DNA from: Spirogloea muscicola
Lineage: Eukaryota; Streptophyta; Zygnematophyceae; Spirogloeales; Spirogloeaceae
Assembly (NCBI GenBank): GCA_009602725.1
Contig: WELB01000248.1
Coordinates: 72,930-136,929, forward strand
DNA length: 64,000 nt
Reading direction: 5' to 3'
Made by a program: the position numbers and the translations under genes. The notes under the pieces are model-generated. The model had not been told where the DNA came from, searched no databases, and was given only the letters and a program-made list of their open reading frames with translations. Positions 3,341 to 46,810 of this stretch are shown here, piece by piece; positions within the stretch are counted from its first letter, which is position 1; each line of letters begins with the position of its first letter.

Positions 3341-5080
3341 ACTTGCATATTCAGTCATGTTGTAGAGTAGGAGCTACTGTTGCTTTGTGCTCTGCCGGCA
3401 CCTAAGATGAGGCGGCTCTAATTTCCGAACCAGTGCATGTCATCTTCACCATCCAGTCAAACACTAGGTGGCAAGTACATAGGTCTTGCACTTTGTGGCC
3501 TGGTGCGAGGAGAGCTATCTTCGACATCCTTCTGCTATTTTGAACATAACTCCCACCCAGTACTTGGGAGCATTGACGAAGCACTGGACAACCACAAGCT
3601 CGTGCGGTAAACAGCAGGCTACATGAGAGGGCTCTATACTCAACACTCCATTTCAAGACCGAGTGCACAGCACACATGGACTTCTTTGCAGGTGCACAGT
3701 GAGCATCTGGTAGTGATGTTTGCTGCACGAGTATTAAGTAGATTCCCCTGACTGTCGTCCAACTGTCAAGATGATAAGCAAAGCACAGCAGTCAGTCCTT
3801 TATAGCGAGCACGCCACATGAAAGTATACAACCGGCAATGCGGCTCAATTTTAAATTCTAATCATCACTTGTTAGGGGCCACCCACGTAAACGCTGGAGG
3901 GTGGGCTTGGTCCACACCTGTGGGGAACCTTGGCCGCCAGATTTCCTGCTGAAATACTTGCACAAGCCAAAAGCAAGATACTGTACAGGAGGTCCTTAGT
4001 TGGAAGACAAGGTACACACGTTGTTTGAGTCAGTTCTTGCCAATCGTTTTATGTCAACGAATGCTTGTTTGACGAGCAGAGCGAGTGGGCAGATTCATCC
4101 CCAACAATCAGAGTCGCCTGTGTGTGACCCTCGCAAGCCTGCGTCAGTGTCATTGCATGCGCTCGTGCAGCCGTGCAGCTTTACAAGTGTGCGATGTGGC
4201 TGGTGTGGCTGTTGAGGTAGCAGAGTGTCATTCGTTGTTGGCTGGTCAATCGTGGGCTGCTTCACTTTCACACGCGGCTAACTCCCTCCCTGGAATAGAT
4301 GACTCTTTGCCACCATCTACATGCTCAAGTGAAGGAGTCAATACGGAGCACACAATATGTATAAGCACAGAATTTCATGAGTAATTGCATGATCGCGCAA
4401 CATGCGGGTGGCGTCCATTCTTGAAGAGTGGGGAGAAAGAGAGCCCGCCGTGCTGCTATCACTATGTGATGCCCGGCAACAACGAAGATGATTAGCTTGA
4501 ATTGGCAGATGTGGCTGGTGGACCATTTCCAGAAGGGCTGAGGACCGCGTGCAAGCTCATCACGTTGGTGCTACAATGAGCTGATGTGATGCCTTCGCTT
4601 TAGTTTCGTCCTTACCTGTGTGCTGTAGGCCCATCCGGCCCTTTCAGACCTTGTCCATTTCTTTGGGCTGGCCTCTCACAGCCACTGCTGTCGATTTGGA
4701 ACAGAATCAGCGCTATTATGATATATCCCGTCGATGGCTCATTCATGTCGGTCTGACAAGGCTTATGAGGTGGCACCACAAGCAGACAATCGAGGCACGC
4801 ACCTATCTACTACTGTAGACCAGAATTCGCAAACACAGCACCTCCAGTTCAACTCCGCTCGAGTAAGTGCGGGTTTGCCTTTGGAACCGTCGATTGCACA
4901 TCACGAGGCCAACCCCATCCTATATCCCAACCACTCAAACACCGTGCGTATCTGCCGCTGGGCCGAGGATTTGGCATCCGAGAGGCAGCCCCATCCTACC
5001 GCCCGAAACCGCTCAAAAGGCCCGCAGAGAAGCCGGAAAAGTCCTTCCCACCAATAAAGCCCGCTCCAATGGGGATGACC
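3341..5080. other. Intergenic, no gene recognised
   Basis: This is downstream flank of the GT61 gene. Short open frames occur on both strands, but none has a recognisable domain, plausible splice partners or coding-like composition. The only structured part is a LINE 3' hairpin unit at about 4636-4700, where the sequence resembles the tail seen at 41280-41345. Confidence 0.6.
4636..4700 (+). mobile_element. LINE 3' hairpin unit
   Basis: A short copy of the dispersed LINE tail: CCCTTTCAGACCTTGTCC followed by GGGCTGGCCTCTCACAGCC. The two halves can pair as a stem-loop. No coding part of the LINE is attached. Confidence 0.7.
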
Positions 5081-5146
5081 CACTTTGACGAGCAAAGGCG
5101 GGTACCGGCCAGGCTACCGGCGGGTAAAGGTGGAAGGGTGAGGGAA

Positions 5147-5641
5147 TAGCAATCCCAGGCTACACTGGCCTTGGGGATTATGGGTGGAGGGGCAGGTCGG
5201 AAACAGCGGTCTCAGGCTACACTGGCCTTGGGATCGAGGGTGGAGGGGAAGTCAAATGGGCCAAAGAGCCTGCTCCAAAGAAAACAGAACCACTCTTTCC
5301 GACCGAAGGTAAGCGAGCGGAGGGCTGGGACCGAGTAGTTCGACTCGTTCGGCTCGTTCGACTCGTTCGGCGCGTTAGGTCGCATACTTGAGGAGCCTTC
5401 TACCGGCAAACTCCGTCAACCGGTACGTAAACCGGTGCTTTGGCTAGACATACGTGATCTTGCTCATCCCCATCCATGTACTGTTTGCATCTTCGTGAGC
5501 ATTCTGTACTGGTTCTAAGACCCTTCATTGGGCGTGAAAGTGGTTCTGTCCAAAGTCTCTTATTTGGGCTTGAAACTGGTTCTGTCCGAACTCCCTTAAT
5601 TGGGCGTGAAACCGGTCCTGTCCGAAGTTCCTTAATTGGGC
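5147..5641. repeat. Short tandem repeats upstream of the gypsy element
   Basis: Three small tandem arrays. Two copies of a segment containing CAGGCTACACTGGCCTTGGG occur at about 5156-5260. A cytosine/thymine-rich CGTTCGGCT-type array lies at 5339-5378. About three and a half copies of a roughly 39-bp unit (TTGGGCGTGAAACYGGTYCT) lie at 5528-5641. They may belong to the 5' leader or LTR of the gypsy element that follows, but I could not match them to a 3' LTR. Confidence 0.6.
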
Positions 5642-7098
5642 GTTATCAATATATCGTTACTGTTCCAAAAACCGATACTGTAACTGATGCTGTTACCGTG
5701 ACGATTACTGGACATCAGTTTCGGATCTAATCCTTGCATCACTGTTGTTTGCTTGGTGTTTCCGCTGCCTCTTTACTGGACCGAGTCGAACTCTTGTCTT
5801 ACTGTGTGGCTGTGATATCAAGCGATTCATACCAGTGCATGGACTTGAGATCAGGCAGAACCATTGAGTCTGTGATTGAATCTTCAGACGTTGTTGAGCC
5901 TGCAGTTGACCTTTCCGACATCGCTGCTGTGGTTGGTGCTACTGCAGACGACATTGAAGTTCGTCTTATCAAGCCCTGCCGTATTACAATGTCGAAGGGA
6001 GACAGGCCTAGATTTCAAGGTACGCCCGGTGGTCACTCTCTGCAAGAGGTTAAGGTCCACTTTGATGCGGAGATTACTCACCTTCGCATCTCAGGGGGCG
6101 TAATTAATCGTGAGGATCGTCTGATGCTACTGGGTCGGTGTTTCACAGAAGCGGCAGCTGCTGTTTATCGGAGACAGAAAGACAGTGTCTTAAACATGGC
6201 TAGGCCTATTCCGGATAATACAACTGAAGCACAAAGAGCGTTGGGTCCTCAATCAATAGAGGATACAGTTGGGGAGATGCTATCCAGATTGACTTGCCAA
6301 TCCGATAAATACAGCCATGTACAAGCATGCGTTAATGAGGTTCAATCGTATACCAGATGAATCCATAACTGCTTGTTATTACAGGTCCAAGTACCTCATT
6401 GAGCAATCAGAGACCAAGATAAGTCAGAAAGAATTAGCTGTCCAATCTCCGAGGGTTGTGGCAGGCACATCTATGGATCAGATACAAACTTTACTGTTGG
6501 TGCGCCGTAGACAACTTCAGGAAGATGATTATGACTTAGAAGATGTATACCAGGTCTTAATTGATAAGGAGAATGATGACTTTACGCTTCTCACAGTGGA
6601 GGAACGCTTTGCAGGCTTGGCGTTCCTATGGCAAAATTTCTGAACAAATTGCGGTAATGCCAGGATTCATATTGCCACACCCGTGGCTCCGCCTCTTGTC
6701 AGTTCATCTTCTTCCCAGAACCCTTCTATCCCACACTGTCTTCATTGCGGGAAGCGGGGACATATTAAGGAGACTTGCAGGCCCCTGCACCAAACATCGG
6801 AAGCTATCTGCTCTTTCTGCTCTAGGGCCGGACATTTAGACACGCAGTGTTGGCAGAAATACCCGGAGAAATTGCCTAACTTCATGAAGGAGAAATATGG
6901 TCAGAAAGGATTTCTAACCAAGTTGCGCAGTCTTCCGGATCCTCTCAAAATAGAGTCGATCAAATGGCATAACAAATTCAAGAATTGACCAAACAACTGG
7001 CAGCTGCCAAGGAGCAGACGAACTCTAAAGTAGTCTCGGTTGCGTTGCCCTACTCAGATCAGCAGGAGGATGAGGATACATACCCAAGACAGCACAAC

Positions 7099-7260
7099 CC
7101 CTGCAATTCAGATGGGTATGATGCTCACCATCGCCATGCTTATACTGTATCACTGCCAAGCCGTAATCCTCTTAAAAGCCCCTGCAATTCAGATGGGTAT
7201 GATGCTCACCATCGCCATGCTTATACTGTATCACTGCCAAATCGTAATCCTCTTAAACGC
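7099..7260 (+). repeat. 81-bp tandem duplication in the gypsy spacer
   Basis: Two adjacent, nearly identical 81-bp copies (7099-7179 and 7180-7260), each starting CCCCTGCAATTCAGATGGG. They lie between the zinc knuckles and the protease of the fossil element. The near identity of the copies suggests a duplication more recent than most of the element's decay. Confidence 0.85.
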
Positions 7261-7753
7261 GGGGAAAACAAATTGCAGCAGAGTGTCAGTTCTGGCAGTT
7301 CTCGTTATCCAGCGAGTTTCAGGTTGAAGGATGTTGAAGTTGACAGTGCACCTAGCTGCATCAAGTCTGTTCAAGCTAAGTCGCTTAGCAACACACTTCC
7401 CACCAATTTTTCTGTGTCAGCTGCAGTACTACTAAAGAAAATGTACTCCAGTCCTGTTCTAAGCTTTGAAGACCTTGGCTTAACGAAGATTCAATTGGGA
7501 GGAGCACATGCAAGTATCCAGTACTCCCAGTCAAATTGTCACCGTTCATTTGACTGATTCGCCCACAGTGATGACGACAGCAGTCTCAAACTCCTTGGCT
7601 GTTGACAACATTCCATGCAGGCCACCAACTGCATGAACCGAACAGCTTGCTGCTGTGGCTATGCTAGGCCGCGCCTCTTGTTGATGGCGAATCTTGTTGA
7701 TAGCGCGATCGCGCGATAAGACGATAACAGGAAAAAAAAGAGCTTTTCAAAAC

Positions 7754-7990
7754 ATGTATTTGCTAATTGTTACTTTGCCTCTCTTGGGCAGTTTTGTAGC
7801 AGGTGTCTTCGGTCGTTTTCTTGGTTACCGTGGTGCAGCTGTAGTAAGTACTACTTGTGTAATATTATCTGCAATTTTCTCTATAACTGCTTTTTACGAA
7901 GTAGCTTTAGGTGCAAGCCCTTGCTATCTGAAGATTGCTCCATGGATTTTTTTAGAAATGTTTGATGCCTCTTGGGGTTTCTTGTTTGAT
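7754..7990 (+). pseudogene. nad5: Nuclear insertion of mitochondrial nad5 (5' end)
   Basis: The translation starts [17 protein letters not shown] and continues for about 79 residues through [17 protein letters not shown]. This is the N-terminus of plant-type mitochondrial NADH dehydrogenase subunit 5, a membrane subunit of complex I. It is AT-rich compared with its neighbours and ends abruptly where gypsy protease sequence resumes. About 30 bases before the ATG may be mitochondrial leader. It is a fragment (the full protein is over 650 residues), cannot be functional in the nucleus, and must have landed in the gypsy element after that element was in place. Confidence 0.93.
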
Positions 7991-8959
7991 AGTCTTCGGA
8001 AGGAGCCATCAAGGTCTCCTTCAAGGATAAAACAGAGGCACCTATCCATGTCCTTGTGGACACAGGTGCACAACCCATCCTGATTGGTTCTCTCTTTGCC
8101 AAGTTGTTAAAAATTGGGAAGGATGACATGAGAAGTAACAAGGTCAAGATCACCACAGCAACTGGTACCACTGATAACGTTGTTGGAGTCACCAAAAGCC
8201 CGTTGCATATCACCTTCAATGGTCATGATCCTACAAAGCGTACTCCTTTCACAGCCATATGCATGATAACAAAAGCCACAACATACAATATATTGTTGGG
8301 TACTGAGACTTTGATTCCCTTAGGTTTTGGACTAGAATATTACCCTGAAGTGGCATGGTACAGACCTCAATGGAAGAATTCTGGTACACATGAAGTCTTG
8401 TTACCGTTATTGAGGGGTGGAATTCCAATATCACATCAGCTCATACTGATAGTGTTATGTTGGATACAGAAAAGGAGGCAATGAAGAAGCCAATTGAAAA
8501 TCCTGCAGAGAAGAAGTCTGAAATGCAGGCGGGTGACAATTCTAAGGGAAGGAGGCAGCAGTACAGCCACTTGACAATTCTTCTAAGAAGGACGCTGAGG
8601 GTTCTCCTGCGATCAATTCGCAGCCACCTTCGCCAGCATCCAGTGAGCAACTTGCACTCGCTTCCACTTCCAACGAACGCGGATTGTCAATGTCCGACAA
8701 TCCTGTATTGCAGCCGAATCGCCACCTAGTACCTCTATTCAATTCAGGCTTGACACCAGCAAATTTGGAGGCACTGGAGCATGCAAAGCATTGGGATCGA
8801 ATTCAGGCTGCGCGAATGAGTTTCCCTGTCATAGGGCACTATCGCGCTGCCGAGGCATGGTCACCTGCGACCTTTGACACTCAGGTGCAGCCCCGCACAT
8901 TGGTTCCACCGATGTCAACTCAATTGGCATATTATACGAGGGTGTCATCGAGTGGGACA

Positions 8960-9560
8960 TACGCGAAGCTGGCATCGTCCTAGTGAAACGTTTCGGTGGT
9001 GCAGCCAATGGACTCAAAGCGCTTCTCCAGAGTCACATTAAAGTGGCCAAATACATATATGTGGATGCAGATGAAGAAGCCAGAGCAGTGGCCAAGCACC
9101 ACATTGACTGGTTCTTAACCCAGTACCCCACTTTGGTGACCTAGCAGACTTTCAGTCATTGACACGTTATGTTTCCTCAGGACATCACCGCAGCAGCAAA
9201 GTCAGCTACAAACAAGCTGCCTAAGGTGGATCTTATTATGGCAGGTTTTCCTTGCGGTGGCTTCAGCTTACTTGGCAACGGGCTGGAATTGAAGCACCCC
9301 CAGACAGGTCTTATCATTACCATGATATAGTTGTTGCACGATAACCGCTCCAGACAAGCTACTCCTTATGGTATATTATTGAAAATGTGGAGCCCAAGCA
9401 TTTTGCTCGACGCGACTTTACCACGGTGTGTGACATTTTGGGTCCACCCACCAAGTTTGATGCAGCAAAGATGGGCTCGTTAGCTGATCGCAACCGTGTA
9501 CATTGGACCAACCTAGCACCGCAACAGATGCTAAAGACTTGTATCCAGCACCAGACTCGG
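8960..9560 (+). other. DNMT3-like C5-cytosine methyltransferase domain inside the gypsy fossil
   Basis: Between protease and reverse transcriptase the sequence shows motifs of C5-cytosine DNA methyltransferases in the right order: a motif I-like segment (FGGAANGLKALL followed by IKVAKYIYVDADEEA), motif IV with the catalytic Cys (AGFPCGGFS), LLHDNRS downstream, motif VI ENV (IENVEPKHFARRD) and a motif VIII-like DRNRVHWTNL. The spacing and wording (GL-ALL, LLHD, ENV, R-R-WTNL) resemble DNMT3 more than DNMT1 or CMT. The domain shares the decay of the rest of the element. By known biology such an enzyme would methylate DNA de novo; in this fossil it is only a remnant. Confidence 0.78.
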
Positions 9561-12299
9561 CCTCCAAACCTCTATGCCTACATGGCCCTCAATCCGGGCC
9601 GCGAGGTGGTACCAGTTCTCCAGGCATTTAACAGAGGTTTCTCCAATGGGGAATGTTGCGTCTGTATGACCTTTCCTACCTTCGTTGCAAATGAAGGTTC
9701 TGAAGACTTTCGTGTGATTAAAAGACAGGCAGGTCAAGGCATGGTCAAGGATTTAGCCACCGACAAATATGAGGAACCACACCCTCACGAGAGAGATAGG
9801 GCTATGGGTTACAATCCAGGAGAGGTCTCTTTTCTTCATTCATCTCGCAAGACCAATATCTGCATAATAGGGATTTCTTTCGAGGCAATCCCATGTCCTG
9901 GTTCACTAGCGTTGGTAATGCTACTCAAGTGCAGTATAGATTGAAGAAGAAAAGCGCGACAACCAACCCACAGGACATGTCGGATACAGATATCAACTTG
10001 TTGAAGTTATTTGATCCAGTAATCAGAGAGATTAATGATTTCTTACAATCACAGGCTAACAGGCAGGTATATCATTCTTTGCCAGACTATCAATGGCATC
10101 TTGGACCTGACCTGACCGCTGACAACAAAGCTCATTTGCTTCAACTTCTAAATAGCAGGCTTTCTGCTTTTGCTTTCTCATCGGCTGATTTGGACACCTA
10201 TATTGGTTCTAAATTTCACATTCAGCTGATAAACGAGCATCCTATCTTTCGTCAACGCTAACCAATGTCTAAATTTGAGAATGATTTCGTAGACAAGAAA
10301 TGCCAGGAGTTGCTAGCTATTGGTTTGATACAACCATCCAACAGCCCTTTTGCAGCACCCACTGTATTACCAGCTGAAAATGAGTTTGGTAATTACACAG
10401 ATCGGAGGATGTGTGGAGATTACCATCTACTCAATGCTTCCACACCTTTGGATCGATATCCCATGCCTACGCCTGAGGAGAATTTTCTTCTGTGGGTAAC
10501 AGTAAAATCTTCACAGTATTGGATCTTAGGCAAGGGTTTGACCAAATTGGTGTTGAGCATAACGACAGGCACAAGACCGCCTTCTGGGGGGTCAATGAAG
10601 GTGTTGGAATCTTATACGAATGGAGAAAATTGCCGTTTGGTCTTACGAATGCTCCTATCATGTTTCAACGTGTCATGGCTGTGCTGTTGAGACGCATTTT
10701 ACTCGCAGGTTGTTACATTGACGATGTCTTAGTATTCAGCAACAGTTTTGAGGAACATTTAAGCCATGTCGCAGTTGTGCTTAAAATCCTTCATCAGGCT
10801 GGCCTAAGATGTCACCCCGGCAAATGTCGTTTTGGCTTACCTGAGGTTGACTATTTGCGTCACCAGATACCACACAAGGGATTGTCACCGCAAGCTGCCA
10901 AAGTGCAAGCAGTTCTTGACATTCCTGAACCCACAAATCTCAAATCATTACGGTCGTTCCTTGGTTTGGCTAGCTACTATCGGCGCTTCATCAAGGATTT
11001 CAATTCCATAGCTCGGCCTCTTAATGATTTGTTGAAAAAGGATGTAAAATGGCAGTGGACTCCTCGTCACCAGGCGTTTAATCAGCTTCAAAATGCTCTT
11101 ACTCAGGATCCAGTTCTGCGACATCCCGATTATGCTCGACTATTTTACTTACACACTGATTGGAGCGAGGTTGGCATGGGCGCTGTTTTGACGAGAACAA
11201 ACATCATTATGTTATTGCTTATGCTAGCTGCAGTAACAATTCTACACAACAAAATCATTCAGCATATGAAGGGGAGTGCTTGGCTGCTATTTGGGCTATC
11301 ACTTATTTCCGACCTTACCTTCATGGTCGTTCATTTCAATCAATCACTGATCATCAACCATTACAATGGCTGTTGACTACTCAAAATCTCAGAGGCAAGC
11401 TAGCACGCTGGTCTATTCAATAACAGGAGTATGATTTCACAAACGGTCATCGTCCCGGTATTCAAAATCTGGACGCCGATGCTCTGAGTCAGAGTCGAAT
11501 CCCTGATGCAGATCCCAACCAACTTGCTCGCATGACCATATGGCATAGGACAATGTTTCCTTCTCGGCTAGCTCATGCCCTGAGGTCATCCACACATAAC
11601 AATTATGCGGCATACGCTCTCGACACTCCTGACAATACCTTCTTTTCTAAAGGTGTGTGGTTGGACGCACCAGTTTTACAGTATTTACAGACTGGTATTA
11701 ATCCTCCCGACTCTACAACAATGCAGAAGGATCGCATTAAACGCCGAGCACGTCGTTATGTCTGAACTGATACACAACTTATCAAACCCGATACTGAGTA
11801 CGGCAATCTCATCGTTGAACCCTCCGCAGTGCGGACACAAATAGTTCTCGATGTTCATGCCTCCTTAGGGCATTTTGGAGTCATGCACCATTTAGTCTGT
11901 TGGCCACTAAATACTGGTGGTCTGGCATCACAAACATGGTCAAATATGTTCTATCTACCTGCGAGGAATGTGATCGCATTCGAAGTACTCTTTCGTTAAA
12001 GTCACCTCAACTTCATCCGTTGCCCATTCACGGATTGTTCTATCGGTGGAGTTTGGATTTGGCTGGTCCCCGTCTGGGTAAACAAAGACCCTACGTGTTA
12101 ATCATGATTGAGCACTTCACCAAATGGGTTGAGGTGGTCATCATTCCTACCAAGTCTAGTGTACACATCGCTGAGGCCTTCTTAAACGAAGTATTATCCA
12201 GATTTGACGCTTGTGCTGAGGTACTCACCGATCAGGGCTCGGAATTGTAGAGTGAATTTCAACGTCTCTTAGACCAAACTTTCATGGATCACCGACTTA

Positions 12300-12960
12300 C
12301 CTCACGAGATCACCCCCATGCCGGGGGCCGACCTGTCGAGGCGCGCCAGGGTGGACACCGCGCCACCGAGGCCCTCGTGCGCGACTACCTGGCCAAGCCA
12401 GGTCGGTCACGTGCCAATCAGGTAAGCGTAACCATCTAGATTAACGCTCACAGTAAGTGGGAACGTTATAAACACCCTCTGTATGCACCTGGCTGGCTTC
12501 TACAGCCGCTCTTTGATATCAGCAGCAACATTTTCCGTTTTCCGCCGTCGCGCCCGCCTCGGCAGCCGGCCGCCATGGCTGGGGCCGCACGCCCCGCCGT
12601 TGGCGACACTTGGCGCGGAATCTCGCTTCAATCAAAAGCGTAAGGGAACGACTCAAACAGTAGAAGGACATCCGCTATCCAAACGGCAAAGGCCCACGCT
12701 CGTGGCGTCTCCTAGCTGGCCGCCCGGCTGACCTGAAGGGCGGACTGCGGCCGCCACGGCGGCCCTCCGAGGCCGGCATCGACAGGAGGAATAGTTCTGA
12801 ACAGTGAGATGAAATGTTGACCATTGCCATTGCTCATTCATTTGTTTCTGACGGCGATGGTTTCCCGCCCTCTGGTCTTTCTGATTTGCACTTGCTGACA
12901 AGAGGTCATTGAGCGCCTACGTGCAGGATTATACCAAGAGAAATTTCGTGCATTTGGCGC
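12300..12960. other. GC-rich edge of gypsy element, then repeat tail; no gene
   Basis: At about 12300 the base composition changes sharply from AT-rich gypsy sequence to very GC-rich sequence (12310-12400), which may still be integrase-related. At 12465-12545 lies a copy of the third repeat family (ACACCCTCTGTATGCACCTG with GGCTGGCTTCTACAGCC). The remainder to 12960 is GC-rich without a recognisable gene. Confidence 0.5.
12465..12545 (+). repeat. Family-3 LINE-like tail with hairpin
   Basis: Contains ACACCCTCTGTATGCACCTG, the hairpin GGCTGGCTTCTACAGCC and then GCTCTTTGATATCAGCAGC. Related copies lie near 24830-24890 (-), 48265-48315 (-), 49795-49860 (+), 54095-54130 (-), 51181-51230 (-) and 61892-61945 (-). 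The hairpin core is the same as in the main LINE tail, while the flanking sequence is different. Confidence 0.7.
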
Positions 12961-45895: not shown

Positions 45896-46810
45896 ATGTG
45901 AAAGGCTTCTTGACCACAGGAACAATCTACTCATCAGATCTGGTGAAGGAACCTGAAGTATCAGTGAAGCTATCGTTTAAGCTTCTCAAAGTAAACTCCT
46001 CAGCCTCCTTCTCCAACATGACTTGATATACATACTTGATGTCGTAGTGCTTCTTGATAAGCTGCTGCCTGCTTACTGTCAATAGATCGACTACATGCCA
46101 CAGAACTATACCAGCTACGACGCGCAATAAACTGTGCCGCTAAATCCTGTGGACTGGTAGTAGTCTCCGACTTCTCTATCAGCTTCACATGATGGAAGTA
46201 ACAGACTGTAATGATTTCATCAGGTTCACGCTGGAACCTCAGAAGATCCTGTTTGTGTTTCATTGTGTTTTCCGGGAACTGATTAGTGAACTGACGGAGA
46301 GTCTTTGCCACAGGATCCTCTATAAGTTGTGGACCGGCCAGCTTCTCTACATCACTTGCGGACTCAGGAACGGCTTTCCCCATGGACAAAATCTCATCCC
46401 TAATGCGCTCATACATGTATCCGGCATCCCCGGTGAAGTACTTCGCCAGTAGAGTAATCTTCGACTCCCTGCTCACTTTACATCCATGCATATCAAGTTG
46501 ACACAATTTTGCTAGAAAGTGGTCGTTAACTTTCAATAGGGTGGCACTACTGTGAGCACCTTGATACTTTGGTAGGTCTCCCGATGCCATGTTGGATCTC
46601 CGAATGCGGAAGTGTCACCACCACCACAGAATCCCTGACCGTTTGAGTAACTGCAGTCTCAGAAGATTGAAGTACTGCAGGCACAGATCGATCAGTGTCT
46701 ATCCGTTCTGTGCTATTTGACTTGTCCAGATTGACGACTTGTGGTCCTGACCTCAATCTCATGCAACAGCTGACGAGAGGTAGTCAAATAACAATTGCTT
46801 GGTATCCTAG
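45896..46810 (-). mobile_element. Second Ty3/gypsy fossil, gag region only
   Basis: A minus-strand gag capsid region related to the gag of the element at 5.7-12.3 kb (shared features: MRLRSG near the start, a YQG/FQG segment, IEDPVA/IEDTVG, a Tyr-rich CY-H/CYYRSKYLIE block). Only the 5' part of the element is present, the pol region is absent, and it has a few breaks. A short tandem array upstream (46890-46995) may belong to its leader or LTR. It is diverged from the first copy, so it is an older or different subfamily. Confidence 0.75.

Follow-up and report, generated by a model that had tools for sequence, protein, structure and literature searches.

Retrotransposons that are silenced by methylation are unexpected carriers of the silencing enzyme, and the known cases have left the purpose of an element-borne methyltransferase (MTase) unanswered. 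The question returns with a 64,000-nucleotide stretch of Spirogloea muscicola DNA (contig WELB01000248.1, positions 72,930 to 136,929 of the forward strand; hereafter the window), in which a first-pass annotation placed a DNMT3-like cytosine MTase inside a Ty3/gypsy element. At issue are (i) whether the MTase belongs to the element, (ii) how it is expressed relative to the reverse transcriptase (RT), and (iii) what it may do during replication.

The element in the window and its methyltransferase

Window positions 4714-12421 hold a broken, dead Ty3/gypsy copy with a resident DNMT3-like MTase. Its parts were delineated largely by alignment to L013, an open copy from the same genome (153-Mb assembly, 471 contigs), and are as follows:

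4714..5302, plus strand: 5′ terminal segment "A", its start aligned to the terminus of locus L010
5830..7488, plus strand: Gag with a CCHC knuckle, and spacer, in several pieces (tblastn with the intact L013 Gag)
7667..7992, plus strand: start of a mitochondrial nad5, inserted within the element (plant nad5, E about 1e-33)
8041..8418, plus strand: aspartic protease (PR), equivalent to L013 residues 647-772
8932..9884, plus strand: DNMT3-like C5-cytosine MTase, broken, equivalent to L013 residues 1026-1350, with PF00145 on 9217-9327
10043..10045, plus strand: position of the conserved stop by junction alignment, a leucine codon in the window copy, followed by CAATCA
10076..11480, plus strand: RT and RNase H, broken, end approximate (L013 alignment; Pfam)
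11819..12421, plus strand: integrase (IN), cut off, start approximate (PF00665, E 4.2e-8 on 11819-12247)

The assignment to Ty3/gypsy rests on the order PR-RT-RNase H-IN, a gypsy-type RT, and a DDE integrase (rve). The RT matches PF00078 (E 4.9e-27) and PF17919 (E 9e-13) at 10477-11373, and its best relative of solved structure is the Ty3 RT (E 6e-76). An ordinary pair of flanking long terminal repeats was not found, and the element is filed by its domains. Weaker signals come from the protease (PF13975, E 2.5e-5, below the family cut-off) and from the CCHC knuckle, which matches below Pfam cut-offs only. Gag aligns in three pieces (5830-6300, 6302-6877, and 6973-7488), and the segment at 4710-5302 is 86% identical to L018 positions 14-594. 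The copy starts near 4714 and has lost its 3′ end: the last aligned L013 residue is 793 of 1037, at 12421, and neither the C-terminal part of the integrase nor a PHD finger was found in it. Stops at 9142, 9160, and 9328 together with frame changes in the MTase stretch, and the truncated integrase, bear out its earlier description as a fossil. The spacer between Gag and PR also contains an 81-bp tandem duplication (7098-7259, 96% identical).

The nad5 insertion between Gag and PR is clean; the positions that flank it are contiguous in L009 (3204/3208) and L018 (3010/3014) and are split only in the window. Because it lies inside the element, the insert is the younger of the two. A minus-strand nad1 piece at 14783-15289 matches a plant mitochondrial nad1 chain at 124 of 150 residues and is by its sequence another mitochondrial segment copied into the nucleus. 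Both pieces, being of plant type, fit a streptophyte host such as Spirogloea, a genus of the Zygnematophyceae. The host is further borne out by the protein P0093 (source name SM000026S08863, s26:99392-100210, minus strand), which matches C26:99395-100210 (minus strand) of the assembly in three pieces with 93-98% identity, so that contig numbering and positions correspond; PMC12290401 gives S. muscicola genes names of this style (SM000027S09592). Elsewhere in the window, a minus-strand Gag fragment of a second element lies at 45897-46611 (72-74% identity to L013 Gag).

All five motifs from which the MTase was originally recognized are present on the plus strand in the claimed order, spread over two frames: FGGAANG (8992-9012), AGFPCGGFS (9241-9267), and LLHD (9331-9342) share one, and ENV (9381-9389) and DRNRVHWTN (9486-9512) share another. 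The interval first proposed, 8960..9560, contains these motifs and falls short of the domain, which spans 8932-9884 and includes the C-terminal RAMGYNPG (9798-9821) beyond the proposed end. None of 20,000 base-shuffled versions of the segment had three motifs in order, the pattern having been chosen after the sequence had been seen. PF00145 matches 9217-9327 above its cut-off (E 1.8e-5, 24.8 bits; cut-off 22), while the flanking pieces 8878-9141 and 9345-9941 matched no Pfam family. With this domain and the PC, ENV, and R.R motifs in linear order, the protein is a C5-cytosine MTase, as had been claimed.

Likeness to DNMT3, also part of the first reading, emerges most clearly at the level of the family. 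A profile of nine related MTases from the Spirogloea genome finds, among solved structures, DNMT3A (E 1.5e-14), DNMT3B (3.2e-12), HaeIII (7e-10), and HhaI (2.6e-8), followed at weaker scores by DRM2 (8.7e-6) and DNMT2-type enzymes (0.012 or worse); no DNMT1 is named among its 59 PDB matches. A single-sequence query gives the contrary order, with HhaI first (1.2e-6) and DNMT3A behind (7.8e-5). A fold model of the relative P0085, built with nine others (mean pLDDT 51.8, confident in the first half only), retrieved DNMT3 complexes in all 50 rows among the matches listed. By these profile and fold matches the nearest relatives of the enzyme appear to be DNMT3 proteins, ahead of DNMT1, DRM, DNMT2, and bacterial MTases.

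Conservation of the active site bears on what the domain does. Accessory domains of other retroelements serve binding or assembly tasks, and this MTase shares one frame with Gag and PR, so its fold could have been kept for nucleic-acid binding or particle assembly as part of a Gag-PR-MTase protein. Such a non-catalytic task is quite improbable, however: the PC-motif cysteine, ENV, and R.R..WTNL are present in 9 of 9 aligned rows (in the divergent L016 the cysteine lies within GWECQGHS), and binding would not demand them. That the substrate is RNA, either the element genome or mRNA, rather than DNA has been raised for SymbioLINE-Dnmt (PMC5890265) and would suit an enzyme packaged together with RNA. 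The proximity of the profile to DNMT3A and DNMT3B and the weak scores of the DNMT2-type tRNA enzymes make this highly improbable here.

The MTase is a resident domain of the element. The window segment has 109 matches in the genome (itself included, with pieces of one locus counted apart) and is therefore not unique to this copy; together with a PF00145 search they yield 101 MTase clusters, some of which are probably host DNMT genes. Of the 39 RT loci that represent the clade among the matches listed, 29 carry an MTase on the same strand, either overlapping the RT or no more than 3.5 kb upstream of it. The RTs of these 39 share 48% identity or more with that of L013 and were taken one per locus, nine second pieces excluded, from a list of 91 scored out of 1,120 candidates; of the ten loci that lack an upstream MTase, one (C142) proved to be an assembly gap, with N at 1,994 of 3,001 positions. 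The two counts rule out a host gene fragment that had landed in a single copy, and neither of the outcomes named with the first reading as refuting it was found. Open copies carry CCHC, PR, and MTase in one frame with RT, RNase H, and IN behind, so that the search for relatives of the same order, proposed with the first reading, was met with success. The order PR-MTase-RT itself follows from the L013-aligned spans of the window (PR 8041-8418, MTase 8932-9884, RT side from 10076).

Trees of MTase and RT recover matching main groups, although some nodes are weak and a few differences occur (e.g., the L025 protease); this fits one old gain of the MTase. For the pair L012/L017, dN/dS is 0.15 in the MTase and 0.08 in the RT, and for window/L018 it is 0.19 in the MTase; dS of the MTase is below 1 in two of eight pairs, the other six being at or near synonymous saturation. 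These ratios indicate purifying selection on the MTase for one intact pair. L009 and L018 point to exchange between elements. Their third positions are 3-9% apart across most of Gag and PR and 31-58% apart in the spacer (401-560); the divergence is 30-69% for the MTase and 17% for the part of the RT that was compared. Judged from these values, the two loci are mosaic, with an exchange around the MTase and a breakpoint between PR and MTase.

A recurrent in-frame stop between methyltransferase and reverse transcriptase

Of 14 loci with a readable junction, 11, which differ in descent, have an in-frame stop that separates the MTase from the RT. The 14 comprise the window and 13 of 19 other fetched stretches, chosen non-randomly by strongest matches and longest open frames; the GC-rich subfamily L016, L027, and L028 gave no junction reading. 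The stop is UGA in six loci (L009, L015, L018, L020, L021, and L025) and UAG in five (L010, L013, L014, L017, and L022). Its column is identical in nine; L020 is off by one codon, and L017, placed by eye, is counted as stop-bearing because a TAG stands in its sequence (TAG CAATTA before QLPF). The stop is missing from the window copy, with its leucine codon, and from L012 and L024. Genome-wide, at least one stop occurs in 31 of 32 matches across the junction site, with positions checked in the fetched loci (at least one match, C134, which is L012, has its single stop elsewhere). The 21 spanning matches with exactly one stop divide into 10 UAG, 11 UGA, and 0 UAA. Among matches that do not span the site, 8 of 12 are without any stop.

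The sequence context of the stop is also recurrent. CARYYA follows directly in 9 of the 11 stop-bearing loci, and a UAG in front of CARYYA constitutes the type I readthrough motif known from plant viruses (PMC5382211), yet the stop of the elements is UGA in 6 of the 11. In the TMV context, UAA and UGA are decoded in plants as well, at lower efficiency (PMC2754532). RNA behind the stop is clearly more stable than its shuffles in two of six loci (L017 and L018; z from 0.2 to -3.3 overall), and no shared fold or pseudoknot was seen across the six.

Most fetched copies are broken at further sites too, the stop is missing in three of the 14 loci, and two proteins from elsewhere lack it: P0082 (PR-MTase-RT-RNase H-IN-PHD in one 2358-residue frame) and the Closterium protein P0096 (MTase-RT-RNase H), whose MTase runs into the RT. 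The stop could thus be ordinary decay, and the MTase part of a single Pol polyprotein as in Klebsormidium. Decay is nevertheless a very unlikely source of a stop that occupies the same site in 11 of 14 loci, between linkers whose identity falls to about 31%, in two codon types, with UAA absent from the single-stop matches and CARYYA behind it. L013, moreover, is open over Gag-PR-MTase (1411 codons) and again over RT-IN-PHD (1037 codons), with a single UAG between.

We infer from this sequence pattern, and by analogy with the viral motif, that the stop is probably leaky and that RT-IN would be made by readthrough. Since the stop lies behind the MTase, the latter would be made at Gag level. Division of a polyprotein by an in-frame stop, the downstream part being scarcer, is likewise found in MuLV, SIRE1, and Tca2 (PMC2194720), and gypsy-type candidates of this kind have been proposed in rice (PMC2754532). 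Unlike in these systems, the Spirogloea stop stands behind both PR and MTase, directly before the RT, and in a CARYYA context. For Tca2, local sequence is insufficient for readthrough (PMC2194720). MTase-less sister elements, which could date the stop relative to the gain of the MTase, were not found.

The PHD finger and the ends of the element

Of the 39 clade loci, 19 have a PHD finger no more than 3.5 kb downstream of the RT, compared with 0 of 48 loci of ordinary gypsy RTs. Both counts are among the matches listed; the first, like the count at the GC-spacer junctions below, uses all 111 PHD matches listed. It forms the tail of the integrase in open copies such as L013.

Four of four loci with segment A before a terminal segment B (L010, L015, L018, and L021) start with TGT, end with GACA, and are flanked by 4-bp target duplications (ACGT, GAAG, GCGC, and GGCT, respectively). 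L025 has both ends, with B before A, and is without a matching duplication; L021 is rearranged inside, with MTase and RT on the strand opposite to its ends. The full repeat structure A-coding-B-A-B is seen in one locus, L010, as A-coding-B-GC-A-B with repeats 98% and 97% identical (junction at L010 8740-8786). No second A or B was found in L015, L018, and L021, which have either lost it by recombination between B copies or are single units.

The joined-ends pattern occurs at 26 loci, with the spacer GC in 19, and a PHD finger lies within 1 kb of 9 of the 19 GC-spacer junctions versus 0 of the 7 others. The reversed pattern, as a control, gave 6 rows versus 29. DIRS elements are not known to make a target duplication. 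The Spirogloea elements do not fall into the DIRS or tyrosine-recombinase class and have an rve integrase and 4-bp duplications instead; B-GC-A junctions and duplications occur beside a DDE integrase.

Relatives, known systems, and a possible role in replication

The kind of element described here is already known from KnitGypsy-Dnmt3 of Klebsormidium and the Symbiodinium elements (de Mendoza et al. 2018, PMC5890265), a precedent in charophytes and dinoflagellates that the first-pass annotation had named correctly. Retrotransposons with adenine or cytosine MTases also occur in green algae (PMC6338049). The additions are a new host, the candidate leaky-stop layout, the PHD tail, the end structure, and a second domain order. 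KnitGypsy-Dnmt3 of K. nitens, likewise from a streptophyte alga, shares gypsy domains with a DNMT3-like MTase in the polyprotein, A-coding-B-A-B repeats (here L010), and purifying selection on the MTase, and differs in its host. The candidate leaky stop, PHD finger, 4-bp duplication, B-GC-A junction, and MTase mosaicism were not found in the text of PMC5890265 that was consulted, and its main text has 0 mentions each of PHD, readthrough, and Gag; K. nitens may share these features. SymbioDIRS-Dnmt3 and SymbioLINE-Dnmt of Symbiodinium are likewise retrotransposons with cytosine MTases, with tyrosine recombinase or LINE machinery as opposed to the DDE integrase of Spirogloea (PMC5890265). The DNMT3-like enzyme of SymbioDIRS-Dnmt3 showed de novo CG activity in yeast, while the Klebsormidium enzyme gave no methylation there, a result called inconclusive in that paper (PMC5890265).

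Among 100 collected proteins, 65 have the RT before the MTase, 6 have the window order (1 in full, P0082), and 29 are uninformative. In Closterium the window order is divided between P0097 (Gag-PR-MTase) and P0096. The second order, RT-RNase H-MTase-IN-PHD, in which the MTase separates RNase H from the integrase, is found in P0001, P0008, P0083 (Cymbomonas), and others; the members of the RT-first group with an organism name are Haematococcus (P0070) and Cymbomonas (P0083), both chlorophytes. No description of this layout was found in the open-licence literature searched. P0001 and L013 are 31% identical in the MTase and 38% in the PHD-tailed integrase. The MTase of P0070 is below the Pfam reporting limit. 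The P0070 protein (Haematococcus lacustris) also carries an RT, an integrase, and a related MTase region, and has PHD fingers in two stretches, the best (225-269) far before the RT. In an RT tree three sets stand apart: the streptophyte type (99-100), the RT-first relatives (100), and four ordinary gypsy RTs of Spirogloea (100). Being unrooted, the tree fits one origin or two captures. Because the larger related group has its MTase behind the RT, supply at Gag level is not general.

For the streptophyte-type elements, the balance tips slightly toward a particle-borne MTase, supplied at Gag level, that marks the cDNA of its own element. In open relatives, one frame would yield Gag-PR-MTase and end at a leaky UAG or UGA, and occasional readthrough would add RT-RNase H-IN-PHD. 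The MTase, produced in Gag amounts, would enter the particle with the RNA and methylate the DNA copy of the element, by analogy at CpG sites, while reverse transcription proceeds or shortly afterwards. The PHD-tailed integrase would then insert the methylated copy with a 4-bp target duplication. DNA methylated in advance would resemble host DNA, or arrive quiet and less harmful to the host. CpG observed/expected ratios are 0.51-0.66 in element copies versus 0.65 and 0.72 in the rest of the window, at most slightly lower, and so leave no clear footprint of self-methylation.

The same leaky stop would yield much MTase unfused to RT-IN, which, freed from the polyprotein, might instead act in trans on host chromatin, methylating host DNA or older copies and dampening the element. 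Self-restraint of this sort is discussed in PMC5890265, and copies are many (101 MTase clusters, including the probable host genes). Action in trans is nonetheless unlikely, as purifying selection in a parasite would be maintained more easily by a benefit in cis.

A broader and rather doubtful proposal covers both domain orders. It posits a PHD-tailed green-algal gypsy lineage with an old, exchangeable DNMT3-like MTase module, placed before the RT and supplied at Gag level via the leaky stop in the streptophyte type, and behind RNase H in the chlorophyte type. This lineage would combine a DIRS-like circle cycle with a DDE integrase: B-GC-A would be the junction of a circle with joined ends, the integrase would trim the GC, and insertion of the methylated DNA, circular or linear, would produce the 4-bp duplications. 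On this view the clade would methylate its DNA as a regular part of replication.

The leaky stop, if real, sets both the amount of MTase (Gag level) and its destination (the particle), and turns a vague question into testable ones on packaging and cDNA methylation. A wide green-algal family with two domain orders also allows a comparative test of the origin and loss of the MTase.
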